From contig NZ_JPJI01000032.1 of assembly GCF_000732625.1 (NCBI RefSeq), positions 1,369,180-1,433,179 of the forward strand: DNA of 64,000 bases. Direction: 5' to 3'. The position numbers were made by a program, and so were the translations under genes. Below the pieces are notes generated by a model. That model saw only the letters and a list, made by a program, of their open reading frames with translations, had not been told where the DNA came from and ran no database searches. Below, piece after piece: positions 5,984 through 62,594 of the stretch; within the stretch, counting starts at the first letter, position 1, and the number at the start of each line of letters is the position of its first letter. The DNA comes from Nonlabens ulvanivorans (GTDB taxonomy: Bacteria > Bacteroidota > Bacteroidia > Flavobacteriales > Flavobacteriaceae).

Positions 5984-5999
5984 CGCTTTCGCGAAAGCG
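5984..5999. repeat. Iterated palindrome, copy 1 (perfect, 16 bp)
   Basis: CGCTTTCGCGAAAGCG, a perfect self-complementary 16-mer in the gap after the ligase-like gene, 31 bases upstream of a separate terminator. See the finding on this repeat family. Confidence 0.95.
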
Positions 6000-6030
6000 T
6001 TTTCCCTAAACAGTTCATTACAAAATTTTA

Positions 6031-6070
6031 AAAGTCGATACCCATTATTTTATGTGCTATCGGCTTTTTT
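6031..6070 (+). terminator. Rho-independent terminator after polysaccharide genes
   Basis: Arms AAGTCGATA (6032-6040) and TATCGGCTT (6058-6066) pair with one G-U, loop 17 nt, followed by a run of T. It would end the transcript of the 1-5957 gene group. Confidence 0.7.
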
Positions 6071-6207
6071 ATTGGTTACGAGTATTAAAAGGTGGTAACG
6101 AAGCCTATTCATTCCATGAAGGATTCTATAAGCATGCAAGACGTTTATTATCAGCAGAAGGAATTTTCAGTTATCAAATAAAACTTAATAACTTAACCTA
6201 CGCTTAA
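6052..6207 (+). other. Unassigned 51-codon open frame in the gap
   Basis: An ATG-started frame running to TAA at 6205-6207 encodes a plausible-looking peptide (includes YSFHEGFYKHARRLL and GIFSYQIKLNN). Its start lies inside the terminator loop, which argues against expression. It may be the remnant of a longer gene or chance. I do not recognise it. The rest of the 312-base gap contains only palindrome copy 1, the terminator and the promoter element of the next gene. Confidence 0.25.
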
Positions 6208-6240
6208 TGTAAATCCACTACGAATTTGTAGCAATAACAA

Positions 6241-6248
6241 TATTTTTG
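6241..6248 (+). promoter_or_regulatory. -7 box of Bacteroidota type for the T9SS gene
   Basis: TATTTTTG matches TAnnTTTG, 22 bases before the ATG at 6270. No clear TTG box at the usual spacing upstream. Confidence 0.45.
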
Positions 6249-6269
6249 TGATTCTATAAAATCATACAA

Positions 6270-9200
6270 ATGAAAAAAATATTACTATTAGTGGCTTTTT
6301 GTGCTGCATTTGTTTCCTATGGACAAACAACTGTATCTTATGATTTTTCTAGTTCTGGGGCACAGTCAGGACTCAATGTTAGCTCGCCTGGAGTGGCATT
6401 AGATGCGAATATCGGTTTTGGTAGTTTTAAAAACTCGGGTTCTTCAAATCCTGGAATTTTTAGTAGTCAATTGAGATTGTATCAAAATGCGACCAAAGGA
6501 GGCTCTATTGTAATTTATCCTAGTAATGGTGTTATTATAACTGATATTACTATAAACGCTTCTGGAAGAACTGGTAATGCGGGCTATAGCGTAGATGGCG
6601 GAGCGGTTGTTAATCTTTCTTCTAGCACAGCATATGTGATAAGCGGTATTTCGGCTACCTCTCAAGTTGAATTTTTTCAACGAGATAGTTCTAGTTCAAA
6701 TAGAATTTATGTTGACACTTTCGATGTGACATACATGTCTGCTGGTCCAGTAACTACAACTCTTCAATTTGATCCCAATGCGTTAACCGTAAATGAAGAT
6801 GCTGGTACGGTTGATCTTACGGTTTCTATTTCTAATGAATCCGCTACAACTGCTACTACTGCAGATGTCGTACTAACCTCTGGTACGGCAAGTAATATCG
6901 GGAACTATATGACTCAGGCTCTTACTTTTCCAGCTGGTTCTTCAACCAGTCAGACGGTAACCGTTACTGTGACTGATGATATGCTTGCAGAAATGGATGA
7001 GAATTTTGTATTTGAATTACAAAACATACAAGGTGGCGATATGGCTGCTGCTGGATTAAATAATGAGTTTACCTTAACCGTTTTAGAAGATGATGTAGCA
7101 CCTATATCACTGCCTTATACAGAGTCATTTGATGATTGTGCAAATAATGCATGGGTATCTTTTGATGAGGCTGGTGATGATGAATGGCTTTGTGGTTCAG
7201 GTTCATATACTATGAATGGTTTTGGAGGTACTGATGATATCGATTGGTTAATTACTGAAGCGCCTGTTTCATTTCCTGCGATGGCAAGTATTAATCAAAT
7301 TGAAGTGACCACATCAGAACGTTATGGAAATGCTATAAATGAAAGTGGAGAGTTTTTATTAAGGTATTCTACAGATTATGATGGTTCAGGAGATCCTACT
7401 ACAGCGACATGGACAGATTTGACTTTTGATCCTAATAATACTTCTTCTAGTAATACTTATTCGGCTTCCTCTAGTACTGTGGTTGACGCTTCTGCTATTC
7501 AAGGTCAGGCTTATATCGCATTTTTATATGATAACACAGGATTAGATGCTGAAGAATGGGTACTAGAAGAAATTGAAATTACTACATTACCTGCTAATAC
7601 AAACCTAGCTCCATCAGTAACTAATATTTCAAACAGTCCATTAGTACCAGCTTCTACTGAAACAGTAACTATCAATGCAGATGTTACAGATGCAGATGGT
7701 CTTGCTAGTGTGGTATTAGAATATGGGTTTGCAACAGGTGTTTATAATCAGCCTTCAGAAATGATGAGTTTAACAAGTGGTGACACTTATACTGCGGTAA
7801 TAGATGCTCAAGCAGATGGAACCACAGTATACTATCAAATAGTTGCCACAGATGCTAATGCGGCACCAGAAACCACAACGAGTTCCGAACAATCTTACAC
7901 GGTAACAGATCCGCAACCTCAAGGATTGCAAGTGGATATGGTAGATACCAACTATCTTATTGATTTTGATAATACGGTACCTAATGTTAATAATGGAGCA
8001 TTTAATGGTTCTGGTTTTGCAACGGTACCTACTGCAGGACAATTAGATGCTGATGCTTTTGCAATAACAGGTTTACAAGATGGAACCACCTCTTTTGGAG
8101 ATGAGCAATCCGGCAATGATTTCGGTAAAGGAACTTCTGATGGAGGTGTGAATAGTGGTGGAATTTATGCTTTTGAAGTAGCACCAGGTGATTTTGCACT
8201 AGGTGTGCAGCCTACTGGAAGTGATTTTACTCCAGGAACTATCCATTTTCAATTTACAAACAATACCGGAGTAACCATCACAGATTTATCTATAGCTTAT
8301 GATTTTTATGTATTAGATAATGAAAATAGAGCAAATGATTTCAGATTCTCCCATGGATCAGATATCAACTCACTTAATGAAATAACTGATGTTGCTCTTA
8401 CATCTATGTTAGGTCAAGATGTGATTGAAGAATGGAAACGTAATTTGATAGCTCTGGATTTGACAGGTTTAAATATAGCTAGCGGTGCGACTTATGTTTT
8501 AGCATGGTCCTCTGCAGATAGTGGAAGTAATTCTTCTGATGAAATCGCTTTAGATAATATACAGATTTTGGCTAATCCTAGCTCAGAAACTATCGAAGCA
8601 GAAGGTATTTATGAATCGATGACTTTGTTGAGTTCAGTATCTTTAATAGATGAAACTGAATTGAATAGTCATTTAAAATTAGTTTCAGGAAATCTAATAA
8701 CTAATGATCAGCTGACTTTTAATTCCATAGATGGTAAAAGTGCTGTAGTTGAAGAGGTGATTTCTGGTTCTATAACAGGTGATGTTACAGTAGAACAGTT
8801 TTACCCAGCACAACGTGCCTTCAGGTTTGTAAGTTCACCGGTAGATATGACGGGAACTATTTTTGATAATTGGCAGCAAGGTGGATTAAATCCTGGTGAT
8901 GCAGGATATCAAGCAGGAATAGGAACACAAATTACGGGTGGAACATCTGGTGGATTTGATATTTCGGGTTCTAATAATCCATCTGCTTTTACTTTTAGTA
9001 ATGATGGAACACAAGCCTGGCAAACTCCAACTGCTACTGATGATATGAATGCTTCTTTAAGCGTAGGAACACCTTACCGATTATTCATCAGAGGAGATCG
9101 TTCCATAGATTTAACGATTAGTGATACGCCTAATGATACCAAGTTAATCACTACAGGTGAACTAAAACTAAACGATGCCATTCAAACTTTTGATGCTAGT

Positions 9201-10238
9201 TTATCTACAGGTGATTTTGTATTTGCTGGTAACCCTTATCAGGCCAAAGTAGATGTAGGAGCGATGATATTTGACATGGCAACTAGAACTCAAGAAGACA
9301 TGAATCCTAACTTTATGTACGTATGGAATCCACAAGCTGGTACAAGAGGTGCTTATAGAGCTTATGATTTTCGAGATTCCACTAGTACACCGACAGATGG
9401 AGAAGTAGCTGGTGAGTTACAACCTGGTCAATCGATGTTTTTACAAATATTAAATGATGCAGATACAGATGTGCCAAGTGTAACTTTTAAAGAAAGCTAT
9501 AAAGTATCTGGTTCTAACTTAACATCTACGTTTAGTGTACCACAAGGATTTTTAACTTTAGATGTTTACAATTCAAACGCTACAGCATTGGATGGTCTTA
9601 AAATCAATTTTGATTTGAATGGGCTAGACATTGTAGATTCGTTTGATCTATTGAAGATTGAAAATTTAGATGAAAATATTTCGATTATCAACAATTCTAA
9701 TAGACTTGCCATAGAGAGTCGTTCTAATCCTACTGACGGAACCATAATTCCTTTAGAAATCAAGCGATTTAACGATGGGAACTATGATTTCAAAACTAGG
9801 TTATCTGGTGTAAATAATTTGAACACCTATTTATATGATGCTCATACTAATCAGTATCATCTCATAGCTGCAGACGTAATGACCACTATATCATTAAATT
9901 TTGACAGCACAGTTCCTTCCACAGTGGCATTAGATAGATTTTCTATTTACTTCTCAAATGTTACTTTAAGTGAGTTAGATGTCGTTAGAACTGATTCTAT
10001 TACAATGTATCCAAATCCGGTAATAGATGGGTCATTACAAATTAATGGTTTGAGTAACGATACTGAATCATCGGTTCAGATTCACAATTTATCGGGACAA
10101 TTGTTACTTCGTCGAGATTTTGAAGCGCACAACGGTCAAGTCATCCTGACTAATTTGGATAATTTAAATATGGGTGTATATTTGTTAACTATACAGCAGG
10201 GCAATAATCGCTTTGTTGAAAGGATTGTTATCAAATAA
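6270..10238 (+). CDS. Large T9SS-exported multidomain surface/secreted protein
   Basis: 1322 aa. A signal peptide (about 1-19, ends VSYGQ) is followed by a beta-rich region, a Calx-beta-like domain (about 162-273), a choice-of-anchor/cleaved-adhesin-like lectin module opening with LPYTESFDD (about 281), a fibronectin-like module (about 447-545), a second lectin-like region (about 555-770), a region typical of T9SS proteins (FRFVSSPVD, about 850), and a C-terminal type A sorting domain from MYPNPV (about 1247) to the end. T9SS cargo crosses the outer membrane and is released or anchored. No catalytic domain is visible, so an adhesin or glycan-binding role is more likely than an enzyme. It lies between polysaccharide genes but has its own promoter element and terminator. 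Confidence 0.85.
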   Translation: MKKILLLVAFCAAFVSYGQTTVSYDFSSSGAQSGLNVSSPGVALDANIGFGSFKNSGSSNPGIFSSQLRLYQNATKGGSIVIYPSNGVIITDITINASGRTGNAGYSVDGGAVVNLSSSTAYVISGISATSQVEFFQRDSSSSNRIYVDTFDVTYMSAGPVTTTLQFDPNALTVNEDAGTVDLTVSISNESATTATTADVVLTSGTASNIGNYMTQALTFPAGSSTSQTVTVTVTDDMLAEMDENFVFELQNIQGGDMAAAGLNNEFTLTVLEDDVAPISLPYTESFDDCANNAWVSFDEAGDDEWLCGSGSYTMNGFGGTDDIDWLITEAPVSFPAMASINQIEVTTSERYGNAINESGEFLLRYSTDYDGSGDPTTATWTDLTFDPNNTSSSNTYSASSSTVVDASAIQGQAYIAFLYDNTGLDAEEWVLEEIEITTLPANTNLAPSVTNISNSPLVPASTETVTINADVTDADGLASVVLEYGFATGVYNQPSEMMSLTSGDTYTAVIDAQADGTTVYYQIVATDANAAPETTTSSEQSYTVTDPQPQGLQVDMVDTNYLIDFDNTVPNVNNGAFNGSGFATVPTAGQLDADAFAITGLQDGTTSFGDEQSGNDFGKGTSDGGVNSGGIYAFEVAPGDFALGVQPTGSDFTPGTIHFQFTNNTGVTITDLSIAYDFYVLDNENRANDFRFSHGSDINSLNEITDVALTSMLGQDVIEEWKRNLIALDLTGLNIASGATYVLAWSSADSGSNSSDEIALDNIQILANPSSETIEAEGIYESMTLLSSVSLIDETELNSHLKLVSGNLITNDQLTFNSIDGKSAVVEEVISGSITGDVTVEQFYPAQRAFRFVSSPVDMTGTIFDNWQQGGLNPGDAGYQAGIGTQITGGTSGGFDISGSNNPSAFTFSNDGTQAWQTPTATDDMNASLSVGTPYRLFIRGDRSIDLTISDTPNDTKLITTGELKLNDAIQTFDASLSTGDFVFAGNPYQAKVDVGAMIFDMATRTQEDMNPNFMYVWNPQAGTRGAYRAYDFRDSTSTPTDGEVAGELQPGQSMFLQILNDADTDVPSVTFKESYKVSGSNLTSTFSVPQGFLTLDVYNSNATALDGLKINFDLNGLDIVDSFDLLKIENLDENISIINNSNRLAIESRSNPTDGTIIPLEIKRFNDGNYDFKTRLSGVNNLNTYLYDAHTNQYHLIAADVMTTISLNFDSTVPSTVALDRFSIYFSNVTLSELDVVRTDSITMYPNPVIDGSLQINGLSNDTESSVQIHNLSGQLLLRRDFEAHNGQVILTNLDNLNMGVYLLTIQQGNNRFVERIVIK

Positions 10239-10308
10239 AGCGCAACTTAATAATCAGGTATCTATATGATAGATTAGATTGTAGTTTTATATTCATATAG
10301 AAGAATTT

Positions 10309-10338
10309 AAAAGGGTAATGGTTACATTACCCTTTTTT
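10309..10338 (+). terminator. Strong Rho-independent terminator
   Basis: AAAAGGGTAATG / CATTACCCTTTT with a 4-nt loop (GTTA) and a T run. It ends the T9SS gene and covers an ATG at 10318 that could be mistaken for the start of the next gene. Confidence 0.9.
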
Positions 10339-10359
10339 AAACCAATTAATATTAATACA

Positions 10360-12315: not shown

Positions 12316-12320
12316 AATCT

Positions 12321-12328: not shown

Positions 12329-12332
12329 CAAA

Positions 12333-17737: not shown

Positions 17738-18919
17738 TTAATCATAAAATTCGTTGATGACTTCATTTAATATAGCACATGATTTTGTTATCTCATCTTG
17801 AGTTATGGTAAGTGGTGGCGTGATTCTTACAGCTTTTTTTTCAAATAGAAGTAGAAAGAAAATTACACCACGATTACGGCACTCATCTACAATCGCGGCT
17901 GTATATTGATCGTCTGACAGTATGGCTGCTAGCATTAATCCTGTGCCTCTTATTTCTTTAATGTTTTTGTTTTTTAAGCTTTCGCGAAAGCGTAATTCTT
18001 TAATCCTTACATCCTTAATGAGATCTCCTTTTTCAAGTTCAGTCATAGTGGCAAGTGCGGCAGAAGCTATAACTGGGTTACCGCCAAATGTGGTAATATG
18101 TCCCAGCATAGGAGCTTCTTTAAACATATTAAGGTGTTCTACACTAGCAGTTAATGCTCCTATGGGCAGTCCACCGGCCAGGCCTTTACCTGTAATCACC
18201 ATGTCTGGTATGATGTCATGTTGTGTAAAATAGAACATGGATCCTGTACGGCCCATTCCTGGTTGTATTTCATCTATAATCAGTAATGCGCCAGTCTGTT
18301 CACATTTTGTCTTTAGCGCCTTTAACCATGATGCATGTGGGATGATAAAACCTGCGCCACCTTGAATCGATTCTATGATTACTGCGGCAGTTAGGGAAGT
18401 AATTAAGTTTAATTGAGACATACAATTAAACTTGATATGTTTTACTTGTGGTAATAAAGGTCTGAAAGGTGCTTTACGTTCTTCATAGTCCATTAAACTT
18501 AAGGATCCCATAGTATTGCCGTGATAAGCTTTTTGCATAGAGATCAATTCACTTCTACCGGTTACTCTACGTGCCAGTTTTATAGCAGCTTCCATAGCTT
18601 CTGTACCACTGTTGACTAGATAGGTCATTTGAAGAGGCTCAGGCATGTGTTGTGCTATTTTTTTACATAGCTCGACTGCTGGTTCTTGAGCATATTCTCC
18701 ATAGACCATCACGTGCATGTATAAGTCTACTTGTTTTTTAATAGCGGTAGTGACTGCTGGATGACAATGTCCTAGTGGTAGTGCACTGACTCCTGCCACA
18801 CAATCTAAGTATTCATTGCCGTGGACATCATAAATGTAATTTCCACGCGCATGTGATACCTCAAGAGCTGGAGCAAATGGGGTAGTAGGAGCTTGAAATT
18901 GAAAAAAGTCTTGCTTCAA
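17738..18919 (-). CDS. PLP-dependent class III aminotransferase
   Basis: 393 aa, fold-type I. Motifs: VNSGTEAMEAAIKLAR (PLP phosphate cup), LIIDEIQPGMGRTG, the Schiff-base lysine in ITGKGLAGG, and TTFGGNPV. The family includes acetylornithine, ornithine and 4-aminobutyrate aminotransferases; the substrate cannot be fixed here. The start is TTG at 18919: an in-frame stop lies five codons upstream and no ATG falls in between. The start is two bases after the OstA stop, so the two genes are coupled. Palindrome copy 2 is inside the gene and encodes RFRES. Confidence 0.85.
   Translation of the reverse strand: MKQDFFQFQAPTTPFAPALEVSHARGNYIYDVHGNEYLDCVAGVSALPLGHCHPAVTTAIKKQVDLYMHVMVYGEYAQEPAVELCKKIAQHMPEPLQMTYLVNSGTEAMEAAIKLARRVTGRSELISMQKAYHGNTMGSLSLMDYEERKAPFRPLLPQVKHIKFNCMSQLNLITSLTAAVIIESIQGGAGFIIPHASWLKALKTKCEQTGALLIIDEIQPGMGRTGSMFYFTQHDIIPDMVITGKGLAGGLPIGALTASVEHLNMFKEAPMLGHITTFGGNPVIASAALATMTELEKGDLIKDVRIKELRFRESLKNKNIKEIRGTGLMLAAILSDDQYTAAIVDECRNRGVIFFLLLFEKKAVRITPPLTITQDEITKSCAILNEVINEFYD
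17978..17992. repeat. Iterated palindrome, copy 2, inside the aminotransferase gene
   Basis: GCTTTCGCGAAAGC (perfect 14 bp) plus G. Read on the minus strand it encodes RFRES in frame with no disruption. Confidence 0.93.
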
Positions 18920-22462: not shown

Positions 22463-22480
22463 ACGCTTTCGCGAAAGCGT
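22463..22480. repeat. Iterated palindrome, copy 3 (perfect, 18 bp)
   Basis: ACGCTTTCGCGAAAGCGT between DUF6095 and the hypothetical lipoprotein gene, just upstream of the lipoprotein start. Confidence 0.95.
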
Positions 22481-26852: not shown

Positions 26853-29282
26853 TTAACCTTTGTTTTTTTCTTCGTTTAAAAATACTTCTAGAGATGCAAG
26901 GTCCGGTATTAAAACCTGTCTCGCCTTGCTACCTTCAAAACCACCTACTATTCCGGCTGCTTCTAGTTGATCAATAATACGACCAGCTCTATTGTAACCT
27001 AATTTTAATTTACGTTGCAATAGTGAGGCACTACCTTGTTGTGCAATAACGAGCACTTCTGCAGCTTCTCTGAATTTACTATCTCTTTCGTCTATGCTTA
27101 TATCAAGACTTGTGCCACCTTCTTCACCTACGTATTCTGGTAGTAGGTAAGCATCTGGATAAGCTTTTTGAGAACCTATAAAGTCGGTGATTTTTTCAAC
27201 TTCTGGAGTATCGACAAAGGCACATTGTATTCTTATAATTTCATTACCAGAAGTATAAAGCATATCTCCACGACCTATTAATTGATCTGCACCACCGCTA
27301 TCCAAGATCGTTCTAGAATCCACTTTTTGTTGTACTCGAAAAGATACACGAGCAGGGAAATTTGCTTTAATCATACCTGTAATTACATTTACAGATGGTC
27401 GTTGTGTCGCGATAATTAAATGAATTCCAATTGCACGTGCCAGCTGTGCTAGTCTGGCTATAGGAGTTTCTACTTCTTTACCAGCAGTCATTATAAGATC
27501 TGCAAACTCGTCAACTACCAATACGATATATGGAAGAAATTTATGACCATTTGCAGGATTCAATTTCCTCGCTTTAAATTTAGCATTGTACTCTTTAATA
27601 TTACGACACATCGCTTCTTTAAGGATGTCATAACGTTGATCCATCTCAATACACAAACTATTAAGTGTATTAATTACTAACGAATTATCGGTAATAATTG
27701 CCTCGCCGCTATCTGGTAACTTTGCGAGATAATGACGTTCAATTTTATTGAATAAAGTTAATTCTACTTTTTTAGGATCTACTAATACAAATTTCACCTC
27801 TGCAGGATGCTTTGAGTAAAGTAGGGAAGTCAATACGGCATTAAGACCTACAGATTTACCTTGACCAGTCGCACCAGCCATAAGTAAGTGAGGCATCTTT
27901 GCAAGATCCACCACAAACGTTTCATTACTAATTGTTTTTCCAAAAGCGATAGGTAACTCCATTTCGGCTTTTTGAAACTTAGGTGATGCAATCACAGATC
28001 GCATGGATACGATAGAAGGGTTTTGGTTAGGTACTTCAATACCTATGGTTCCTTTCCCAGGTATAGGTGCAATGATACGTATACCTAATGCTGCTAGAGA
28101 TAAGGCAATATCATCTTCCAGGTTTTTAATTTTTGAGATACGTACTCCAGCTTCAGGGACGATTTCATATAAAGTTACCGTTGGACCTATAGTCGCAGTA
28201 ATTTTAGCAATACCTATTTTATAATTGTTTAGGGTTTCAACAATTTTTAATTTGTTTGCTTGTAATTCCTCTTCATTAATAGTAATGGTTTTACCTTGAG
28301 AATAATCTTTAAGTAACTCTAGAGGAGGAAATTTAAAATTGCTCAACTCAAGAGTTGGGTCGAACTCGCCAAAGTCTTCTACAATCTTTTCTGCCTTACT
28401 ATTAATATCCTCATCTTCGTCGATTACGGCGTTGATTTCTACATCAACATCACCATCGTCTTGTTTAGGAATTGTTTTAAGAACAGGCTCTGGAATTACT
28501 TCTGGTTCTGGAATAATCTCAGGTTCTGAAATGGTAACTTCCATTTTATCGGATTCTGGTGGAGTAGGAGTAGCAACCTCTTCAACGACTGTCTGTCCTT
28601 CAATAGTTGATTTTTCCCAGTCTTGCTCTTCATCAGACGGAATTAAATCTGGCTCAAAACTGTCTTTAACCTCAGTAGCTTTTTTAGCAAAATAAGCACT
28701 TACTTTTTCAGGTGTGATATTTAATCGCAACACCATGTAAATAATAGCTAGTATGATCATTACCACTATAGTACCTAGCAGTCCAATATAATCTTGTAAA
28801 AAGTCATTTAATTCCATTCCTACCTTACCACCTAGTAATGGATTAGAAGCATGAAAAAAGCCCATAGTCATGGACAGCCATAACATTAATAATAATCCCC
28901 AAAACCATAGATTGAGGATACGCTTTCGCGAAAGCGTAAACACATCTTTCTTTGCAGCAAATAGAAATATACCAGTAATGATGATCAATACCGGAATCGA
29001 TAGCGCAGCGATTCCAAAACCATCATAAATAAAAAAGTTACTTAATCCAGCTCCTATTTTACTAAGCCAGTTTTGTGCTACAATCTCGCGGTCAGATATA
29101 TTGCCTAATATACTTTGATCTTCACGCCATGTAAAGAAGAAAGAGATAAATGAAAATAGAAGGATGACACCAAGACCCATCAACAACAAACCTATTATGA
29201 CCTCTTGTACTCTGCTTAATGTAAAGCTAGGTATCAGTGGTTTTTTAGGTGATTTTGGTTTGGTGGTTTTCTTTTTGGCCAT
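26853..29282 (-). CDS. ftsK: DNA translocase FtsK
   Basis: 809 aa. Four N-terminal membrane helices (about 20-190) are followed by a Pro/Glu-rich linker (about 225-310) and the motor: alpha region, RecA-like beta domain with Walker A GATGQGKS and Walker B IVLVVDEFADL, then a C-terminal winged-helix gamma domain (SLLQRKLKLGYNRAGRIIDQLE). It pumps chromosome ends to the dif region and helps XerCD and septum closure. It leads a six-gene operon and has a good promoter at 29300-29328. Palindrome copy 4 lies in the segment before the fourth helix and encodes LSRKR. Confidence 0.96.
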   Translation of the reverse strand: MAKKKTTKPKSPKKPLIPSFTLSRVQEVIIGLLLMGLGVILLFSFISFFFTWREDQSILGNISDREIVAQNWLSKIGAGLSNFFIYDGFGIAALSIPVLIIITGIFLFAAKKDVFTLSRKRILNLWFWGLLLMLWLSMTMGFFHASNPLLGGKVGMELNDFLQDYIGLLGTIVVMIILAIIYMVLRLNITPEKVSAYFAKKATEVKDSFEPDLIPSDEEQDWEKSTIEGQTVVEEVATPTPPESDKMEVTISEPEIIPEPEVIPEPVLKTIPKQDDGDVDVEINAVIDEDEDINSKAEKIVEDFGEFDPTLELSNFKFPPLELLKDYSQGKTITINEEELQANKLKIVETLNNYKIGIAKITATIGPTVTLYEIVPEAGVRISKIKNLEDDIALSLAALGIRIIAPIPGKGTIGIEVPNQNPSIVSMRSVIASPKFQKAEMELPIAFGKTISNETFVVDLAKMPHLLMAGATGQGKSVGLNAVLTSLLYSKHPAEVKFVLVDPKKVELTLFNKIERHYLAKLPDSGEAIITDNSLVINTLNSLCIEMDQRYDILKEAMCRNIKEYNAKFKARKLNPANGHKFLPYIVLVVDEFADLIMTAGKEVETPIARLAQLARAIGIHLIIATQRPSVNVITGMIKANFPARVSFRVQQKVDSRTILDSGGADQLIGRGDMLYTSGNEIIRIQCAFVDTPEVEKITDFIGSQKAYPDAYLLPEYVGEEGGTSLDISIDERDSKFREAAEVLVIAQQGSASLLQRKLKLGYNRAGRIIDQLEAAGIVGGFEGSKARQVLIPDLASLEVFLNEEKNKG
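28919..28938. repeat. Iterated palindrome, copy 4, inside ftsK (perfect, 20 bp)
   Basis: TACGCTTTCGCGAAAGCGTA. In the ftsK frame it reads TLSRKR, in the loop between predicted membrane helices 3 and 4. Confidence 0.95.
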
Positions 29283-32126: not shown

Positions 32127-32142
32127 CGCTTTCGCAAAAGCG
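32127..32142. repeat. Iterated palindrome, copy 5 (one mismatch)
   Basis: CGCTTTCGCAAAAGCG differs from the consensus by one base (G to A), breaking the symmetry. It lies in the cytochrome c/oxyR intergenic region. Confidence 0.8.
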
Positions 32143-34226: not shown

Positions 34227-34242
34227 CGCTTTCGCGAAAGCG
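34227..34242. repeat. Iterated palindrome, copy 6 (perfect, 16 bp)
   Basis: CGCTTTCGCGAAAGCG in the 230-base gap upstream of the cupin lipoprotein. That gap holds only this copy and the terminator at 34293-34323. Confidence 0.95.
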
Positions 34243-45627: not shown

Positions 45628-46071
45628 ATGACGCCATTACGACTACCGGCAGGAAATTTCAGGGTTAAAAGTACTGAAAAAGGTCGGTTGATTTTTGACC
45701 AGATACGTAAAAAATTTGTCCATCTCACACCAGAGGAATGGGTGAGGCAGCATGTGGTGTTTTGGCTGCTTTCGCGAAAGCGTATACCACACAGTCTTAT
45801 TAACGTAGAAAAACAGCTCAATGTCGCAGGGACAAAGAAGCGATATGACATCCTCGTTTTTAATAAAGATGGTTCTATATATGCGGTGATTGAGTGTAAA
45901 GCGCCGCAAATAAAAATAGATCAATCCGTGTTTGACCAGATCGCGCGATACAATCTCGCACTAGAATCTGAGTATTTAATGGTCACTAATGGAATGGAAC
46001 ATTACTTTTGCACCATGGATTATGAGGCGCAACGTTATCAATTTATCCCAGATTTACCAGATTATACATGA
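45628..46071 (+). CDS. Stand-alone HsdR N-terminal-like (HSDR_N_2) nuclease-fold protein
   Basis: 147 aa. PD-(D/E)xK-like core: EWVRQHVVFWLL, then RYDILVFNKDGSIYAVIECKAPQIK, in which D and E-x-K are the expected catalytic residues. This is the N-terminal domain of type I restriction HsdR without helicase or specificity subunit; flavobacteria carry it as a separate gene. Actual nuclease activity is untested. Overlaps the next GT2 gene by four bases. Palindrome copy 7 is inside the gene and encodes LSRKR between the helix EWVRQHV and the active site. Confidence 0.78.
   Translation: MTPLRLPAGNFRVKSTEKGRLIFDQIRKKFVHLTPEEWVRQHVVFWLLSRKRIPHSLINVEKQLNVAGTKKRYDILVFNKDGSIYAVIECKAPQIKIDQSVFDQIARYNLALESEYLMVTNGMEHYFCTMDYEAQRYQFIPDLPDYT
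45768..45782. repeat. Iterated palindrome, copy 7, inside the HsdR_N-like gene
   Basis: GCTTTCGCGAAAGC (perfect 14 bp) plus G, read in frame as LSRKR. Confidence 0.93.
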
Positions 46072-50484: not shown

Positions 50485-50500
50485 CGCTTTCGCGAAAGCG
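50485..50500. repeat. Iterated palindrome, copy 8 (perfect, 16 bp)
   Basis: CGCTTTCGCGAAAGCG six bases after the helicase stop, before the terminator. Confidence 0.95.
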
Positions 50501-55661: not shown

Positions 55662-57332
55662 ATGCTATCAGACATACTTCACGCGCAACAGGTACTACTT
55701 CTTTTTAAAAAAAGAGCAGTGCAACATATCGTTATTTCTCCAGGATCTAGAAATGCACCTCTAACCATAAGTTTTACAAACGATTCTTATTTTAAGTGTT
55801 ATAGTATCGTTGATGAACGGTGTGCATCACACTTTGCAATGGGTATCGCACAGCAATTAAAGCAACCTGTAGCAGTAGTTTGTACTAGTGGTAGTGCATT
55901 GTTAAATTACTATCCTGCTGTTACTGAGGCTTTTTATAGTGAGATTCCATTAATAGTCCTTAGTGCAGATCGTCCACCACATAAAATAGATATAGGTGAT
56001 GGACAAACGATCAGACAGCAACATGTTTATGCTAACCATATTCTTTATGATACACATCTAGAGATGATTAATAGTCTAGATGATCAAGAAGCGATGGCGA
56101 CTAATGAAAGGCTAATCAATAAAGCAATTAATGTCGCCATAACAAATCATGGACCTGTACATATCAATATACCATTTGAAGAACCGCTCTACAATACGGT
56201 AAATGTTCCTAAAGTCGATCCTAAGGTGGTTGATCCTATTATTGAAACTAATGCGAGTATACCATCCTTATTTATAGATAGATGGGAGAAAGCTAATCGT
56301 AAGTTGGTCATTTTATCTACTTTAAATCCTGATGTATTTACTCAAGATCAGTTGAACTTAATAACCAGTGATCCAACAGTGTTGGTAATAAGTGAAGTGA
56401 GTTCTAACATCAGACATGAGAAAATTATATGGGGAATAGATACCCTAATCGCGCCTATTGAAAATGATGAAGATGCTATTGCGCATTTGCAACCTGATAT
56501 GGTCGTTACCATAGGTGGAATGATCGTTTCTAAAAAAATCAAACAATACCTGCGCAGGTTTGAGACACAATATCATTACCACATCGGTAATCGTCGTGCA
56601 TATGATACTTTTTTCAAGTTAGCTGGACACATTAAAACAGCTCCAACACATTGGGTTGATCAATTATCTATAAATGAAACTTCAGATAGTTATAGGGATT
56701 ACTGGCTGCAGTTTTTTAATAATTATCTAATCAAAAGAACGGATTACCTAGCTGCAATACCATGGAGCGATTTTAGAGCCTTCAATTTGATATTTGATAG
56801 TTTGCCTGATGATATCGTTTTGCAATTGGGAAACAGCAGTACAATCAGATATGCGCAGCTTTTCCCTATGAACCCGACGCACACCGTATTTTCTAATCGA
56901 GGAACTAGCGGTATAGATGGTTCTACGAGCACAGCCATAGGAGCTGCTGTTGCTCAAGATAAACCTACTGTATGTATCACAGGTGATTTAAGCTTTTTGT
57001 ACGATAGCAATGCTTTGTGGAATAATTACATTCCAGCAAATTTTAAAATAATTGTTATCAATAATAGTGGTGGCGGAATTTTCCGAATTCTACCTGGTGA
57101 AAAAGATAATCACACCTTTGATACTTATTTTGAAACGACTCACCAGTTAGACGCTAGTCATTTATGTAAAATGTATGATATTAATTATCATAGGGTTGAT
57201 GGAGAAGACGCTTTCGCGAAAGCGTATGAAAAATTCCTGAATGATAATTCAAAACCTCAATTACTAGAAATATTTACACCTAGACTTGAAAATGATACCG
57301 TTCTTCTAGACTACTTTAAATTTCTCAAATAG
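55662..57332 (+). CDS. menD: SEPHCHC synthase MenD
   Basis: 556 aa, a thiamine-diphosphate enzyme: HIVISPGSRNAPL (about 22-34), SIVDERCASHFAMG, VVCTSGSALLNYYPAV, GDGQTIRQ, and the ThDP site GDLSFLYDSNALWNN (about 445-459). Combines isochorismate with 2-oxoglutarate. The ATG at 55662 gives the length expected before ISPGSRNAPL; an in-frame TTG at 55626 lies in the -33 box. Palindrome copy 9 is inside the gene and encodes AFAKA near the C-terminus. Confidence 0.95.
   Translation: MLSDILHAQQVLLLFKKRAVQHIVISPGSRNAPLTISFTNDSYFKCYSIVDERCASHFAMGIAQQLKQPVAVVCTSGSALLNYYPAVTEAFYSEIPLIVLSADRPPHKIDIGDGQTIRQQHVYANHILYDTHLEMINSLDDQEAMATNERLINKAINVAITNHGPVHINIPFEEPLYNTVNVPKVDPKVVDPIIETNASIPSLFIDRWEKANRKLVILSTLNPDVFTQDQLNLITSDPTVLVISEVSSNIRHEKIIWGIDTLIAPIENDEDAIAHLQPDMVVTIGGMIVSKKIKQYLRRFETQYHYHIGNRRAYDTFFKLAGHIKTAPTHWVDQLSINETSDSYRDYWLQFFNNYLIKRTDYLAAIPWSDFRAFNLIFDSLPDDIVLQLGNSSTIRYAQLFPMNPTHTVFSNRGTSGIDGSTSTAIGAAVAQDKPTVCITGDLSFLYDSNALWNNYIPANFKIIVINNSGGGIFRILPGEKDNHTFDTYFETTHQLDASHLCKMYDINYHRVDGEDAFAKAYEKFLNDNSKPQLLEIFTPRLENDTVLLDYFKFLK
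57208..57225. repeat. Iterated palindrome, copy 9, inside menD (perfect, 18 bp)
   Basis: ACGCTTTCGCGAAAGCGT, read in frame as DAFAKAY near the C-terminus of MenD. Confidence 0.95.
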
Positions 57333-57393
57333 AATTTCATCATATCTTATTAATTCTTACATTTAAAGTCTTAACTAATAAACGTAAAATACA

Positions 57394-57729: not shown

Positions 57730-57748
57730 AAATTAACTAGTAAACATA

Positions 57749-57784
57749 TAAAATCCCGATGCGTGAGCATCGGGATTTTTTAAT
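57749..57784. terminator. Terminator after DUF2853, probably bidirectional
   Basis: Perfect 12-bp arms AAATCCCGATGC (57751-57762) and GCATCGGGATTT (57767-57778), tetraloop GTGA, T run. The minus-strand 85-aa gene ends at the other side. Confidence 0.95.
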
Positions 57785-58041: not shown

Positions 58042-58475
58042 TTCTCTACCGCTTCAACTTCTTCTAGTGTCACCATATCACCACTGTTCCAAGTTTGAAT
58101 AGTATAATTCATCACGTCAACGACTTCATCATTTTCTAGACCTAGTGATAGCATGATATTATCATAGGATTGTCCATTGACTTCAATAGGTCCTTTAAGG
58201 CCGTATTTTACAGCATGGATACTTTCCGTTCGTTTATCTGTCAGCCAGTTTGATGGATTAAGAGGAGGAAAAGCACCTGGAACACCTTTTCCACTAGTCA
58301 TATGACAGGTCACACAATTCTCTCTATAAATTTCTCTACCTCTTGCGACACTTGCTTCTAGAGGTGTTTTTTTAATCTCCTTTTTTTCTACAGGAGCGGC
58401 TGCCCTAGTTTCGTTTTTAGAATTGCCACAACTGGTTAACACCATAAGAGCAACTAGAGTAATTAAATATTTCAT
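58038..58475 (-). CDS. Lipoprotein c-type cytochrome
   Basis: 145 aa with a lipoprotein signal (LTSC, Cys about 16). One heme c site CVTCH (about 55-59), preceded by GREIYRENC; the axial Met is probably in YDNIMLSLG. It starts 1 base after the sugar dehydrogenase stop on the same strand, so it is likely the electron acceptor of that enzyme. Located on the periplasmic face of the outer or inner membrane. Confidence 0.88.
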   Translation of the reverse strand: MKYLITLVALMVLTSCGNSKNETRAAAPVEKKEIKKTPLEASVARGREIYRENCVTCHMTSGKGVPGAFPPLNPSNWLTDKRTESIHAVKYGLKGPIEVNGQSYDNIMLSLGLENDEVVDVMNYTIQTWNSGDMVTLEEVEAVEK

Positions 58476-58476
58476 T

Positions 58477-59676
58477 TTATTTTTTTTCTATTTTAAATAT
58501 TCCTTTTCCTTCGACAGCAATATAAATAAGTCCATCAGGACCTATTTTTACATTGCGCAAGCGACCTATTTTATCGGCAACCTTTTCTCTTTTTGTCACT
58601 CGATTACCGTCCATATAAAGCATTTCAAGATATTGAAATTTTAATGATCCTACTAAGAAGTTACCATTCCATTTTTTATAAGCTGGATTATTAATAATAG
58701 CAAAACCACTAGGTGCAATGCTGGGTACCCAATAGTAAATAGGTTGTTCCATGCCTTCTTTTTCTGTAATGTCAGTAAATGTCGTGCCGCTATAATTAAT
58801 ACCATAGCTTATGACTGGCCAGCCATAGTTCTTTCCAGATTCTATAATGTTAATCTCATCACCACCTTGTGGTCCATGCTCATGTGCTATAATCTTCCCA
58901 GTTACTGGATGAGTCGTCATTCCCTGCGGATTTCTATTTCCATAACTGTAAATAGCAGTTTTAATTCCTATGGTATCAATACCTTTTGTAATCTCTACAA
59001 ATGGATTATCGTCAGGAATGCTGCCATCATCATTAATACGGTAAATTTTACCACAGTCTCTATAAATATCTTGCGGATTCACATCACGGTTACCTCGATC
59101 ACCTATGGAGAAATATAAATGACCTTCTCGATCCCATGTAAATCTGCTACCGAAGTGTTGCCCTTTTTTAGAGTTGGGCATCGCTTTATAAAGGACTTCT
59201 AGGTCTTCTAACTTATTGTTTTTAAGTACAGCTCTAGCGATAGTGGTATTTCCTCCATCGCCACCACCCATTTTTGAAGCATAAGAGATGTAAATGAAGT
59301 TGTTTTTTTCAAATTGTGGATGAACAGTCACGTCTAGTAATCCACCTTGACCACGCAAGTAAACCTCTGGTACACCTTTAATCTCTATGCTTTTTGAACC
59401 ATTGAACTTGTAAAGTCGTCCTTCTTTCTCTGTATAAAGCAAGTCACCATTAGGTAACCAGGTCATTCCCCACGGAATATCGAGGTTTTCAATGATAGGA
59501 GTGATGGTGTAATCTTTCTGGTCATCTATTAATGGAACGTTATCGACTTGTGGTGCATTGTTTTCTGTGGTCGTTGAATTATTTGTGGTGGTAGCTTCGA
59601 CGAGTTGCTGATTATTAGTTTCTTTGCAAGAGACTATGGTTGACAGCAGTATGAGTATCGAAATATATTTTTTCAT
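58477..59676 (-). CDS. PQQ-dependent soluble aldose dehydrogenase (YliI/Asd type), lipoprotein
   Basis: 399 aa from the ATG at 59676 (MKKYISIL), giving a clean lipoprotein signal (IVSC, Cys about 17); the in-frame start at 59733 adds an unlikely N-terminus. GSDH family beta-propeller: DIPWGMTWLPNGDLLYTEK (partly, about 68-86), GQGGLLDVTVHPQF, GQHFGSRF, SYGNRNPQGM and HEHGPQGGDE, YGWPVISYG. Oxidises aldoses in the periplasm with PQQ, electrons going to a cytochrome c such as the adjacent one. PQQ synthesis genes are not in the window. Confidence 0.9.
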   Translation of the reverse strand: MKKYISILILLSTIVSCKETNNQQLVEATTTNNSTTTENNAPQVDNVPLIDDQKDYTITPIIENLDIPWGMTWLPNGDLLYTEKEGRLYKFNGSKSIEIKGVPEVYLRGQGGLLDVTVHPQFEKNNFIYISYASKMGGGDGGNTTIARAVLKNNKLEDLEVLYKAMPNSKKGQHFGSRFTWDREGHLYFSIGDRGNRDVNPQDIYRDCGKIYRINDDGSIPDDNPFVEITKGIDTIGIKTAIYSYGNRNPQGMTTHPVTGKIIAHEHGPQGGDEINIIESGKNYGWPVISYGINYSGTTFTDITEKEGMEQPIYYWVPSIAPSGFAIINNPAYKKWNGNFLVGSLKFQYLEMLYMDGNRVTKREKVADKIGRLRNVKIGPDGLIYIAVEGKGIFKIEKK

Positions 59677-59923
59677 TACGAGTAAGTTTTTTTTAAAAAT
59701 ACTACCGCTTTGTTCTATAAAAGTTAAAAGCATAAAAATTCTTTGATTTTGCTGTTTAAAGATCTTAGGAGATTGTTTTTTAGTATGGTTTTCCTTTTTG
59801 GGTTAATTGTTGAAAATCAGTTTAAACGATTAAAGTCAATACGTTTTAACGATGATTTGTGTGTTTTGGAGGGGTTTTTTGTAAATAGAAAATAGAATAT
59901 ATTAGATTAGTTGAGGTTCATAG

Positions 59924-59931
59924 TATCTTTG
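59924..59931 (+). promoter_or_regulatory. -7 box for the Calx-beta exoprotein
   Basis: TATCTTTG, 28 bases before the ATG at 59960. No good TTG box. The rest of the 283-base gap before it shows nothing else. Confidence 0.45.
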
Positions 59932-59959
59932 CGACGTTATATTTTTAAAAATAACTCTT

Positions 59960-61120
59960 ATGCTAACTAGATTTTTATTTATAGCTTTTCTTGTATTCAA
60001 TCATATAGTTGTTAATTCTCAGGTAGGTGTTGGTACAGATACTCCTGCAAACTCATCTATGTTACATATTAGTGGAACAACTGATGGTATTAACTTTAAA
60101 GGTTTTATGCCTCCTAGAATCCCAAGTGAAGTAGAACGTAATACAATAAACCCTGAAATTGCAGACGCAGGACTGCTTATTTTTTTACAAAGTACAGGTT
60201 GTTTGCAAATATGGACAGGAAGCAATTGGAGAGATATTTATTGTTCTAATAGTATCGTTGATTTTACCAATGCGTCTCAAACTCTATTTGAAGGAGTAGG
60301 TGGTATTGATTTTCAGTTTGATATAGAAGATCCTTCCTCTACGCAGTCACTTACGTTTTTAATTTCAGCTTCAAGTTATACGGATCTTGATGAGTCTACT
60401 GGAGTAACTATTACTATTCCACCGGGTGTTACGTCTTTTACAGCGACAGATGTTTTTACGATAACAGATGACGCAGTAGAAGAAACTTCCGAAGATGTCA
60501 TTTTTACTATTTCTAATCTAACTGGTGGTCAAGGAACACCGAGTATAGGAACAACTAATCCACATACGGTTACTATTGTTGATAATGATACTCAATTATT
60601 AGATCTTTGGATTAATGAGTTTCATTATGATAATAATGGTGTTGATACGAACCAATTTGTAGAATTAGCTGGTATTGCCAATACCAATTTAGGCACTTAT
60701 GAAGTTGCTCTCTACAATGGTTCTGGTAATGCTTATCGTTATTGGAGTAATTCTAATACCTCACTAGCAGATACTAATGGCAATGGTTATGGATTTATTA
60801 CAATAACTATTCCTGAAAATAATAATTTTGAGAATGGTATAGGAGCTATCGCATTGAGCTTGAATGGTTCTGTTGTTCAGTTTATTAGTTATGGCGGTGT
60901 AGTCACAGCTAGTAATAGTAATACTTTTGGAATAAACATCGCTGCGGGAATGACTTCTACAAATATTGGTATACAGCAAACAGGTGATGCTACTTTAGAT
61001 CCTGCGGGAGCATCGCTTCAATTAACAGGTGCAGGAAGAACCTTTGGTGATTTTACTTGGATCAGAACTCAGATGAGTACTCGAGGGGCAGAAAATACTG
61101 GTCAAACTATTTCTAATTAA
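59960..61120 (+). CDS. Exported protein with Calx-beta-like and lamin-tail-like domains
   Basis: 386 aa with a signal peptide (ends about residue 20, VNSQ). N-terminal segment VGVGTDTPANSSMLHISG (about 22-39) resembles the start of phage-tail-fibre-like or Bacteroidota surface proteins, followed by a Calx-beta-like module (about 95-210) and an LTD (lamin-tail) domain opening with LWINEFHYDNNGVD (about 217-230). The C-terminus lacks a T9SS sorting domain, so its route to the surface is unclear. No catalytic motif. Followed by a bidirectional terminator. Confidence 0.75.
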   Translation: MLTRFLFIAFLVFNHIVVNSQVGVGTDTPANSSMLHISGTTDGINFKGFMPPRIPSEVERNTINPEIADAGLLIFLQSTGCLQIWTGSNWRDIYCSNSIVDFTNASQTLFEGVGGIDFQFDIEDPSSTQSLTFLISASSYTDLDESTGVTITIPPGVTSFTATDVFTITDDAVEETSEDVIFTISNLTGGQGTPSIGTTNPHTVTIVDNDTQLLDLWINEFHYDNNGVDTNQFVELAGIANTNLGTYEVALYNGSGNAYRYWSNSNTSLADTNGNGYGFITITIPENNNFENGIGAIALSLNGSVVQFISYGGVVTASNSNTFGINIAAGMTSTNIGIQQTGDATLDPAGASLQLTGAGRTFGDFTWIRTQMSTRGAENTGQTISN

Positions 61121-61143
61121 AAGATTTACTTTTTTTCAATCAT

Positions 61144-61180
61144 AAAAAATCTCTTTTCATAGGAGAAAAGAGATTTTACA
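61144..61180. terminator. Bidirectional terminator
   Basis: Arms AAATCTCTTTTC (61147-61158) and GAAAAGAGATTT (61165-61176), loop ATAGGA. It ends the exoprotein gene on + and the small minus-strand ORFs on -, where the T run is better. Confidence 0.85.
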
Positions 61181-61263
61181 GTTTATGGTTAGTTATAATT
61201 TATGTGATAGGCGAGTGAAGGCTAATTCAAACTAAATCCTAAATGATAAATTAATATAGAGTA

Positions 61264-61386
61264 CTATGCTTGATAAGGTGAAATTCCCCAATCGTCAGTA
61301 GCATTTCCTGTTCTAGGTGTGATTCTGTTACGTGATAACATCGGGAAATCAGAATCAGAGTCGATAAATCTATTAGTAATACGCAT
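61264..61386 (-). CDS. Possible 40-aa protein, second of a tandem pair
   Basis: An ATG-TAG frame on the minus strand encodes a polar peptide with FIDSDSDFPMLSRNRITPR and ends GISPYQA. Codon use looks protein-like and the frame is closed cleanly 87 bases before a terminator. It lies 48 bases downstream of a 37-aa frame on the same strand. Too short for a family call. I do not recognise it. Confidence 0.45.
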   Translation of the reverse strand: MRITNRFIDSDSDFPMLSRNRITPRTGNATDDWGISPYQA

Positions 61387-61434
61387 GATAGTAAGTTTAT
61401 GTGGTTATAATATTAGAGTAGTTAATAGCATGTA

Positions 61435-61548
61435 TTATGCTAATCTGTAACGTCTTTTTGCATTCCAGTTATCGCTGTAAGTTCTGTCTGGACGGAATCT
61501 TTTATTCGTTAATTCAGTGATGGTTTTAAAGGTGTCGCTCGCTTTCAT
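61435..61548 (-). CDS. Possible 37-aa basic protein, first of a tandem pair
   Basis: An ATG-TAA frame encodes a strongly basic peptide: MKASDTFKTITELTNKRF then RPDRTYSDNWNAKRRYRLA. The ordered mix of charged and aromatic residues is unlike random AT-rich frames. It may bind nucleic acid or a ribosome, by composition only. No promoter consensus was found in the 215 bases upstream (61549-61763), which hold no other gene I can see. Confidence 0.45.
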   Translation of the reverse strand: MKASDTFKTITELTNKRFRPDRTYSDNWNAKRRYRLA

Positions 61549-61763
61549 AATAGTTGTTTTTTGTTGTTATGCTTATATGACGACACTTTTTTTAAAATGT
61601 TACACTACTTTGTAAAACATAGTAGTAAAAAATTTATAAAACATTGTTATTTAGGTGATTGTATTGCTAATTTTTTTAGCATTATTTAAGAAAGGAGAAG
61701 ATTATAATCGTCTAATTCACTTTTAAGAGGTGAATTTTACATTTGTTATAATACTATTAGAGT

Positions 61764-61955
61764 ATGATATTGATAATACTTTTATTCTGGATGAGTTGTA
61801 TTTGGTTTTATCGTAAGACAAAACCATATAGGAGAAGAAAAGAATTGATTGCTTTTTGGGTAATGGTCTTTATCCCTGGAATAGGGACTATGTATCACTG
61901 GAGAAGTCGATCCTCTTTTAAGGAACGTATAAATTTGCGAAAAACAAAGAGTTAG
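61764..61955 (+). CDS. Possible 63-aa membrane protein
   Basis: 63 aa with two hydrophobic segments (MILIILLFWMSCIWFY and LIAFWVMVFIPGIGTMYHW) separated by a basic stretch (KTKPYRRRK) and ended by a basic tail. A typical two-helix small membrane protein; a PLDc_N-like arrangement is possible. It converges with the DUF2452 gene with a 4-base overlap. No promoter or family recognised. Confidence 0.5.
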   Translation: MILIILLFWMSCIWFYRKTKPYRRRKELIAFWVMVFIPGIGTMYHWRSRSSFKERINLRKTKS

Positions 61956-62353
61956 ATTTGCTCCCAAAGCTTTTCACTCGATAAGCGATAGGTTCCTACA
62001 AAATCCCAATTACATTCTTGTGGTGCAATGACAGATAGGAAATGCCTGCCGTCTTTACCTAAATATAGGTGGTAGATTTCACCTACAATAGGTTCAAAAG
62101 AGAATTTTGCTCCATATACCAACTGATTATCCTCAAATTTTTTAACCATGGCATCATACTCTGCTTTAAGTTGTTCAAATTTGGATTTGATTTCATGGTT
62201 GACCTTATTAATATTGGTTTGCTTCCATGATGTGATATCAGGTGTTGTTATTTTAGGAGCTGCAACGCCACTGGAATAGGGAAGAAGTGCGGCATTATAA
62301 GTGCCAGTTTCTTCATCATACACAACATAATCTGGTTTTTTTTCCTCGCTCAT
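61952..62353 (-). CDS. DUF2452 family protein
   Basis: 133 aa. Family pattern: PYSSGVAAPKITTPDITSWK (about 26-45, split), helix NKVNHEIKSKFEQLKAEYDAM (part), then KFSFEPIVGEIYHLYL and DFVGTYRLSSEKLWEQI (part). Unknown function; common as a single gene in Bacteroidota. Cytoplasmic. Confidence 0.8.
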   Translation of the reverse strand: MSEEKKPDYVVYDEETGTYNAALLPYSSGVAAPKITTPDITSWKQTNINKVNHEIKSKFEQLKAEYDAMVKKFEDNQLVYGAKFSFEPIVGEIYHLYLGKDGRHFLSVIAPQECNWDFVGTYRLSSEKLWEQI

Positions 62354-62574
62354 GTTACAAATTTACGATACGTCCACTTGTTTTGTGTAAGATTAACATG
62401 AATTTCTTAAACAAGAAATCGAGACAGATGCGCCTATCCCGATTTTAATAACTCATCAATCCCCTACAATTGCTGAATCATTTTACTAAAGTATTGATTA
62501 TTAGGTATAAAATACGTGGTAAAATCATATTATGTCATTCTCATTCTATGAAACCTTAGTTTGACTTGATGAAA

Positions 62575-62594
62575 TACGCTTTCGCGAAAGCGTA
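62575..62594. repeat. Iterated palindrome, copy 10 (perfect, 20 bp)
   Basis: TACGCTTTCGCGAAAGCGTA, 10 bases past the 3' end of the T9SS/FG-GAP gene. The surrounding gap (62354-62604) holds nothing else I can identify. Confidence 0.95.

Follow-up and report, generated by a model that had tools for sequence, protein, structure and literature searches.

A palindrome repeated at exclusion-like distances in Nonlabens genomes, apparently kept as a protein-binding mark

Results

At the centre of a dyad-symmetric site ~50 bp long lies the nearly invariant 14-mer GCTTTCGCGAAAGC, and this palindrome is apparently kept by selection or molecular drive, as a protein-binding mark. On balance, we favour the view of a previously undescribed marking system of the Bacteroidota that spans the genomes of Nonlabens, Dokdonia and one related genus, with ~290-860 identical dyad sites per genome, a footprint of ~50 bp, mutual-exclusion spacing and a putative dimeric reader that does not belong to the pilus/secretin type of uptake. 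Such a system would be a new chromosome-spacing element or else the first DNA self-recognition signal that is palindromic and independent of pili, and mobile elements would bring it into genera nearly without it. Perhaps cells recognise DNA as their own by this mark.

The window analysed here, the whole stretch of 64,000 nt, holds nine perfect copies of the 14-mer and one with a single mismatch; with two mismatches tolerated, shuffled sequence yields 0.10 per window. The source genome (3.21 Mb) contains 566 perfect copies and 0 of the reversed, non-complemented control. An initial annotation had listed the same nine copies plus one as strongly enriched. The recount in the window upholds this, and the genome count lies far from the chance level that the annotation had named as evidence against itself. 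Taken as a whole it held in part, the observation itself being confirmed and the option of a mobile element finding no support. Its sites are correct, with starts 0-3 bases off those given below, several of them being the starts of a 16-mer or 20-mer. The 20-mer of its title has two occurrences in the window (28919, 62575) and 37 on C32, a contig comprising 1.65 Mb of the chromosome. Regular spacing, flanks and lineage restriction are new relative to that annotation.

As annotated, four copies are coding. The copy in the class-III aminotransferase gene (17978..17991; like all sites here, given without strand) is perfect in G006, L085, L088, L089 and L090 and has one mismatch in L086; a Dokdonia site placed at this position by rough mapping was unsupported by further comparisons. 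The copy in ftsK (28922..28935, read as LSRKR) is perfect in six of six other Nonlabens-clade loci (L085-L090) and adjoins a 6-residue insertion specific to that clade. The copy in the gene of a 147-aa HSDR_N_2 protein (45768..45781) is perfect in L086 and L089, with three mismatches in L088 and eight in G006, and that in a TPP-enzyme gene (57210..57223), called menD-like on the basis of the annotation and of domains, is perfect in G006. The non-coding copies sit between ORFs that are 150 aa or longer (5985..5998, 34228..34241, 62578..62591, and 50486..50499 directly past the stop of a ResIII/helicase ORF), save the one-mismatch site GCTTTCGCAAAAGC (32128..32141), which shares bases with the beginning of a cytochrome-c ORF and is perfect in L085. 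A further intergenic copy (22465..22478) is kept in L085; L086, L088 and L089 have a site ~1.1 kb off instead.

Perfect copies on C32 number 306 vs 55 with one mismatch, and scrambled palindromes give means of 0 and 0.2, respectively. The over-representation and the excess of perfect over one-mismatch copies looked for in a USS or DUS are thus both found on this contig. CGCTTTCGCGAAAGCG occurs there 240 times. The rest of the genome has 260 copies in ~1.56 Mb (0.167 vs 0.185 per kb on C32).

On C32, a neighbouring copy is kept out of the first 1-3 kb around each site. With a CV of 0.47 the copies, 306 in number, are over-dispersed, the closest pair is at least 1.1 kb apart, and no gap below 1 kb was observed, against 57.7 on average over 2000 simulations. 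Only 35 of 305 gaps are below 3 kb and 95% are below 10.7 kb. The pair correlation is 0 below 1 kb and ~1 beyond 3 kb, and the observed spacing is intermediate between simulations with a hard exclusion at 2 kb and at 2.5 kb. Every full 100 kb contains 15-22 sites, without a trend near the skew minimum. A single one-mismatch copy among the 55 lies within 1 kb of a perfect copy, where random positions would do so in ~37% of cases. Of the 306 copies, 193 are inside crude ORFs, and density is ~7-fold higher between ORFs; convergent gene gaps are not enriched (0.61 vs 0.93-0.98 copies per kb).

Each site has a symmetric footprint of ~50 bp, alike within genes and between genes. The flanks are symmetric and AT-rich out to ~18 bp, T-rich before the palindrome and A-rich after it, with no left-right covariation. 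Since the footprint is symmetric without such covariation, double-stranded DNA is probably what is read, and we infer as reader a putative dimeric protein acting on it. Searches of the sampled genomes for ParB, ComEC, PF00263 and PF00437 identified no cognate protein or receptor.

Coding copies seem, from alignments of homologues, to arise mostly by substitution. Of 312 site genes, 15 had usable homologues, and a terminal site with five unmatched residues was excluded. Fourteen internal coding sites could be compared with homologues lacking the motif, and 11 of them showed no insertion of at least 3 residues; the remaining three are the single ftsK site seen in three genomes, and random positions of the same genes have such insertions in 3% of cases. 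The substitution origin expected of a USS or DUS is therefore found, in a small sample. At orthologous coding places with 65% nucleotide identity, five of nine sites are perfect (0.03 expected), a result that holds in either direction. Between Dokdonia and the source genome, coding sites stand at the same codons in 0 of 3 cases each way. Stretches from G001, G227 and G211 have few clear orthologues on C32, so that their comparison told little. A recognition site maintained across the genome, as the initial annotation had envisaged, is strongly supported.

All 23 Nonlabens genomes carry the motif, at 288-857 copies each. In a family sample of 397 genomes from 237 genera, hundreds of copies occur in three genera, Nonlabens, Dokdonia and one related genus, and the remaining genera have 0-19. 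Leeuwenhoekiella has no perfect copy in five loci, and in L099, a relative, the motif is lost and the sites look decayed. The annotation had also allowed that the same bases might stand in orthologues of species without the repeat; a perfect copy was found in 0 of 73 ftsK-region loci of other genera, a few of which have degenerate copies. Two Nonlabens phages, which resemble each other, have 0 copies in 35.7 and 35.0 kb, with ~6.5 expected in each. Viral contigs with two or three copies exist (for example L185, L199, L216 and L239), so that absence of the motif from phages is based on two records that are related. A scan of viral contigs gave at least 120 stretches, and of 80 examined most had other flanks and some were AT-rich with typical flanks. 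Mobile elements in motif-poor hosts retain the motif. In small samples of motif-free genera no other palindrome reached comparable density; two candidates were noted. The exact 14-mer was not found in the open-licence literature, where TTTCGCGAAA brought up, by title and start of abstract, seemingly unrelated work only; this negative does not extend to CTTTCGCGAAAG. Nonlabens together with a palindrome returned nothing apparently relevant, as judged by the listing of that literature.

Discussion

Only a few known bacterial systems keep one sequence at hundreds of positions through selection or drive. Since the spacing follows a clear rule on C32, the site is symmetric, and among close genera some carry it and some lack it, with apparent decay seen as well, the questions opened here can be tested in marine genera that have named strains: what drives such repeats, and by what means Bacteroidota select the DNA they take up or space marks along the chromosome.

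The reading that we place first, with less than even confidence and by analogy, is that the site works like a DNA uptake signal for natural transformation, as in Haemophilus. Uptake would favour fragments with one copy or more, so that copies, built by point mutation, would accumulate wherever several kb are without one. A second copy close by would give no gain, phages and newly arrived islands would remain copy-poor, and copies would decay once the trait is lost. Counted for this reading are the copy number, lineage restriction, excess of perfect copies, over-dispersion, intergenic density, flanks, substitution origin, persistence at five of nine orthologous places, absence from the two phages and apparent decay in L099. 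The part of PMC7965970 that was available reports that another flavobacterium, Riemerella columbina, favours its own DNA in transformation.

For the Haemophilus USS, the available portion of PMC1626085 describes perfect copies that outnumber singly mismatched ones, somewhat regular spacing, origin by substitution, AT-rich flanks and a preference for non-coding DNA, yet with 65% of copies coding. The Nonlabens site is like the Pasteurellaceae USS of that account in its lineage restriction, excess of perfect copies, AT-rich flanking segments, many coding copies and substitution origin; the scarcer USS of one species, H. ducreyi, is counted as a likeness too. The Neisseria DUS, by the same account, likewise has many copies, coding and intergenic, with somewhat regular spacing, but is a non-palindromic 10-mer core without a flanking motif. 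Whereas the USS is a non-palindromic 9-mer at ~1 per kb with some close pairs, the Nonlabens site is a palindrome of 14-16 bp at 1 per 4-6 kb, its short-range exclusion on C32 is stronger than described, and a secretin is missing in most carriers searched.

The stronger exclusion on C32 counts against the uptake reading, as does the non-palindromic nature of USS and DUS, also noted in the part of PMC1939737 consulted. The secretin PF00263 was found in one of seven motif-rich genomes searched, which was also the only one with a PF00437 match above the cut-off; the known pilus-type machine is therefore missing in most of them, and these searches gave no pilus gene set discriminating carriers. 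Since the pilus-type machine with secretin that goes with USS and DUS was not found as a rule, the site is not classed among them, only as working alike. ComEC occurs in all 20 genomes searched, those that carry the motif and those that do not, and so does not discriminate carriers either. Also counted against an uptake signal are the differing codons of Dokdonia, retention of the motif by mobile elements in motif-poor hosts, the two or three copies in some viral contigs, and the failure to find a receptor. A search of the open-licence literature on natural transformation of Dokdonia gave nothing on this subject, as judged by title and start of abstract.

A somewhat less probable, though serious, reading is a chromosome-organising site, at which a putative intracellular dimeric protein (nucleoid-associated, condensin-loading or topoisomerase-loading) would nucleate, each site serving a few kb per side so that sites would be selected about every 5 kb all round the chromosome. 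The dyad footprint without covariation, the even counts per 100 kb without a skew-minimum trend, the empty first kilobase and the exclusion-like spacing all suit it, and Karlin once took even spacing of uptake sequences to indicate a role in replication, repair or compaction (as told in the part of PMC1939737 consulted). Its patchy occurrence, with few or no copies in other genera, no perfect copy in Leeuwenhoekiella and apparent decay in L099, is not what an essential chromosome function would show. Nor does any ParB paralogue follow the motif in its distribution, and separate sites resembling parS are located close to the skew minimum. Each of 20 genomes has one ParB_N protein of 294-320 aa, and G006, G122 and G241 have an extra one of 616 aa irrespective of the motif, so an extra ParB as reader of the ParB/Noc type was rejected. 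Noc-binding sites and parS are palindromes of the TTTC..GAAA type bound by dimers, a type that the Nonlabens palindrome shares, with TTTC presumably one base nearer the centre than in their consensus; it differs in having hundreds of sites, and a ParB of ordinary size is found alongside it, as are parS-like sites. Nucleoid-occlusion sites (Noc, SlmA) are depleted around the terminus; for the Nonlabens palindrome, copy density is available for C32, along which it is flat, and for the rest of the genome as a whole.

It is unlikely that the palindrome is a Chi-like self-marker, read by a translocating nuclease or recombination enzyme that would attack site-free stretches or leave them unrepaired and would degrade phages without the site. 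The two copy-free phages and the upper limit of the gaps would agree with this, but Chi is a polar octamer, short and read on a single strand, whereas the footprint here is symmetric and ~50 bp long.

Slighter still is the chance of a methylation-linked palindrome like cyanobacterial HIP1 (GCGATCGC), to which the initial annotation had likened it, created and kept by mismatch-repair or methylase bias on the inner CGCG or TCGCGA as in Elhai's model (PMC4390886, in the part available). Both are highly iterated palindromes across the genome with coding copies. HIP1, however, has 8 bp and orphan methylases (same part of PMC4390886), and the Nonlabens signal extends over 14-16 bp with symmetric flanks and a ~50-bp footprint instead of a methylase site of 4-8 bp. 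On C32, 306 of 443 TCGCGA belong to the motif and CGCG is below Markov expectation; biased repair also leaves the exclusion distance unexplained.

A mobile micro-element, as the annotation had proposed, a repetitive extragenic palindrome or a bidirectional terminator is highly improbable: the palindromic form, the higher density between ORFs and the insertion beside the ftsK site would fit, but copies seem to arise mostly by substitution, exclude each other below 1 kb on C32, are not denser between convergent genes, and show no covariation between arms. A hairpin was rejected on the substitution origin, the absent covariation and the flank direction, and an intrinsic terminator or REP, with a stem followed by a T-run outside genes, is rejected by flanks of the opposite direction and by the many copies inside ORFs. 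A MITE-like element, inserting with common ends, was likewise rejected, ftsK being the sole internal site with an adjacent insertion of at least 3 residues. Insertion origin had appeared proven from ftsK until other genes were checked, where substitution seems to predominate.

Distribution of the palindrome

The window holds nine perfect copies and one single-mismatch copy of the 14-letter palindrome GCTTTCGCGAAAGC, reported as an enriched repeat by the initial annotation; dinucleotide shuffles yield 0.10, and the genome-wide count proposed as a check bore this out, with 566 perfect copies in the 3.21 Mb genome and none of the reversed control. All 23 Nonlabens genomes searched contain 288 to 857 copies (control, 0), the lowest count coming from a genome that is 78% complete. 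Among 397 genomes (237 genera) sampled evenly across the Flavobacteriaceae, 80 carry at least one copy and only six, from three genera, carry hundreds (four Nonlabens, G211 with 408 and G227 with 857); the remaining genomes hold 0 to 19. Outside the family, 0 to 2 copies per genome were found in samples of the order (148 genomes, partly family members) and the class (119 genomes). In a tree of 88 FtsK proteins, built by a quick method, G227 groups with Dokdonia (support 100) and G211 falls near Dokdonia and Leeuwenhoekiella (support 87, branching order unsettled). A 22-kb Dokdonia locus around ftsK contains six perfect copies. No description of GCTTTCGCGAAAGC was found in titles and abstract openings of the open-licence literature, subscription papers and preprints being outside the scope of the search. 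In Muricauda/Flagellimonas and Maribacter loci (L106-L164), CCCAATTGGG occurs 20 times in 354 kb, and CGTAATATTACG 11 times in 11 Maribacter loci; each set could be a single site shared by orthology, or else another iterated palindrome.

Anatomy and placement of the site

Site statistics were obtained on C32, a contig of the window genome (1,653,179 bases, about half of the genome, including a GC-skew minimum). Perfect copies number 306 there, those with one mismatch 55 and those with two 24, compared with means of 0, 0.2 and 4.0 for about 40 scrambled palindromes. The preceding base is C in 89% of copies and the following base G in 88%; farther out, to about 18 bp, the 5′ flank is T-rich and avoids C while the 3′ flank is A-rich and avoids G. 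This pattern is present separately in 190 coding and 113 intergenic sites (three ORF-edge sites excluded), and is weaker in Dokdonia and G211. Left and right flanks do not covary over positions 1-15 (z -1.5 to 1.3 for all sites; the lowest value for coding sites was -2.4 and the highest for intergenic sites 2.0). With its symmetric flanks the site as a whole forms a dyad some 50 bp long, and since the flanks do not covary, a symmetric protein probably recognises it in double-stranded form rather than as a hairpin. An intrinsic terminator was rejected because the flanks run in the opposite direction.

Crude ORF calling places 193 of the 306 copies within ORFs. As ORFs make up 92% of the sequence, the density of copies between them is about 7-fold that inside. 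This intergenic density is alike for tandem and divergent gene pairs and lower for convergent ones.

Spacing

Gaps between C32 copies average 5379 (CV 0.47, minimum 1107, maximum 18,027), and none is under 1 kb, against a Poisson expectation of 51.7. Of 2000 simulations that preserved the coding/intergenic split, none had a CV below 0.85 or fewer than 36 gaps under 1 kb. Pair correlation rises from 0 below 1 kb to 0.18 at 1-2 kb and 0.44 at 2-3 kb, and is about 1 at greater distances; each full 100 kb holds 15 to 22 sites. Only one of the 55 one-mismatch copies lies within 1 kb of a perfect copy, versus about 37% of random positions, so that one-mismatch copies, too, are probably functional. 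Including them gives a CV of 0.45 and a smallest gap of 730, a spacing intermediate between simulations with hard exclusion at 2.0 kb and at 2.5 kb. Stretches of other genomes are less regular: G001 (400 kb) has a CV of 0.94 and five gaps under 1 kb, the smallest of 223, where 16.2 would be expected, G227 (200 kb) 0.73 and one (8.6 expected), and G211 (200 kb) 0.76 and none (5.1 expected).

Conservation and apparent decay

Five of nine coding sites with an orthologue in G006 are perfect there (0.03 expected), the genes being 65% identical; of the other four, three have 8, 8 and 9 mismatches and one falls in a gap, and the reverse comparison likewise gave five of nine. Perfect coding sites relative to the window genome, in rows that share sites and so are not independent, numbered 3/3 in genome G008, 2/3, 1/1, 2/3, 3/3 and 2/2 in Nonlabens-clade loci L086, L087, L088, L089 and L090, and 0/3 in the Dokdonia locus L098. 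The ftsK site is retained in all six other Nonlabens-clade loci, and in three of these the window site at 22465 is substituted by one about 1.1 kb away. By approximate mapping, some Dokdonia sites lie near syntenic positions of sites in other Nonlabens, which hints at a common origin.

The initial annotation had also raised a mobile micro-element and suggested comparing orthologues for insertions. Usable homologues in motif-free loci existed for only 15 of 312 site-bearing genes, and some alignments were poor; 11 of 14 internal sites lacked an insertion of at least three residues, and the three that had one were all the same ftsK site (3% at random positions of these genes; a terminal site with five unmatched residues was not counted). 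In the Nonlabens clade, FtsK (window 26853-29282) has a six-residue insertion adjoining the motif in its N-terminal membrane region, missing from the other genera compared.

L099, a 13-kb MAG locus beside Dokdonia, has no perfect copy, three two-mismatch and two three-mismatch copies (60 controls average 0 and 0.23). One of these copies coincides with the position of the Dokdonia ftsK site, and this looks like decay. Five Leeuwenhoekiella loci (108 kb) hold no perfect, one one-mismatch and two two-mismatch copies (control, 0 one- and 0.2 two-mismatch), and other loci (1292 kb) 0, 1 and 3 (control, 0.03, 0.08 and 2.7).

Mobile elements and islands

No copy was found in two Nonlabens phages, which resemble each other; among the matches listed, some viral contigs have two or three. 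Within motif-poor genera many copies are clustered (G097 has 16 within 78 kb, G307 has 18 of its 19 on two stretches, and G072 has 12 of its 17 within 38 kb), and elsewhere scattered (for example, nine on six contigs in G165). Most clustered stretches retrieved are mutually related, and 37 distinct sites on them share the flank pattern, except that -2 is most often C (46%). L362, one of these stretches, aligns piecewise at 70-87% identity with a Nonlabens element in G001, and the two have in common a site pair 222-223 bp apart; sites on the clustered elements persist at 74-90% identity. Such elements are probably exchanged between hosts that bear the motif and hosts poor in it.

The related family (L327-L342 and L362; G108, G236, G181, G222, G099, G122, G357, G033, G367 and G097) occurs in several Flavobacteriaceae genera, with the motif every few kb in otherwise motif-poor hosts and a recurrent site pair 933 bp apart. 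Its G108 member carries RteC together with metal-resistance genes (metal-efflux and multicopper-oxidase genes; Pfam, 20 proteins). A G001 island (C4:270-330 kb; L300-L303) is motif-poor, with five copies and one 30-kb gap, as expected if recent arrivals come without sites; it encodes an SbcC-like ATPase, an AAA/Mrr protein, a subtilase and a Rhs-repeat protein, with a relaxase nearby.

Possible functions

Features of Haemophilus uptake signals described in PMC1626085 and PMC1939737 are matched here, and an uptake or self-recognition signal is therefore our highest-rated, if tentative, reading; palindromy, strength of exclusion and gene content depart from that model. Against it, a secretin was found in only one of seven motif-rich genomes searched, and ComEC was non-discriminating. 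The flavobacterium R. columbina is described in PMC7965970 as transformable with a preference for its own DNA, and a table there gives only A/T-rich words as its commonest 7- to 10-mers. Rated close behind an uptake signal, and likewise tentative, is binding of the site by a chromosome-organising protein; against this, the trait is patchy among genera, with apparent decay, and presence of the motif is not followed by any ParB paralogue.

Secretin together with a T2SSE-type ATPase exceeded cut-offs in only two of 20 genomes (G001:C4:334-337 kb and G143:C9:6-9 kb). On C32, parS-like palindromes lie at 561802 and 563693, near the GC-skew minimum, and a ParB_N gene at 1630837, about 1 Mb from them.
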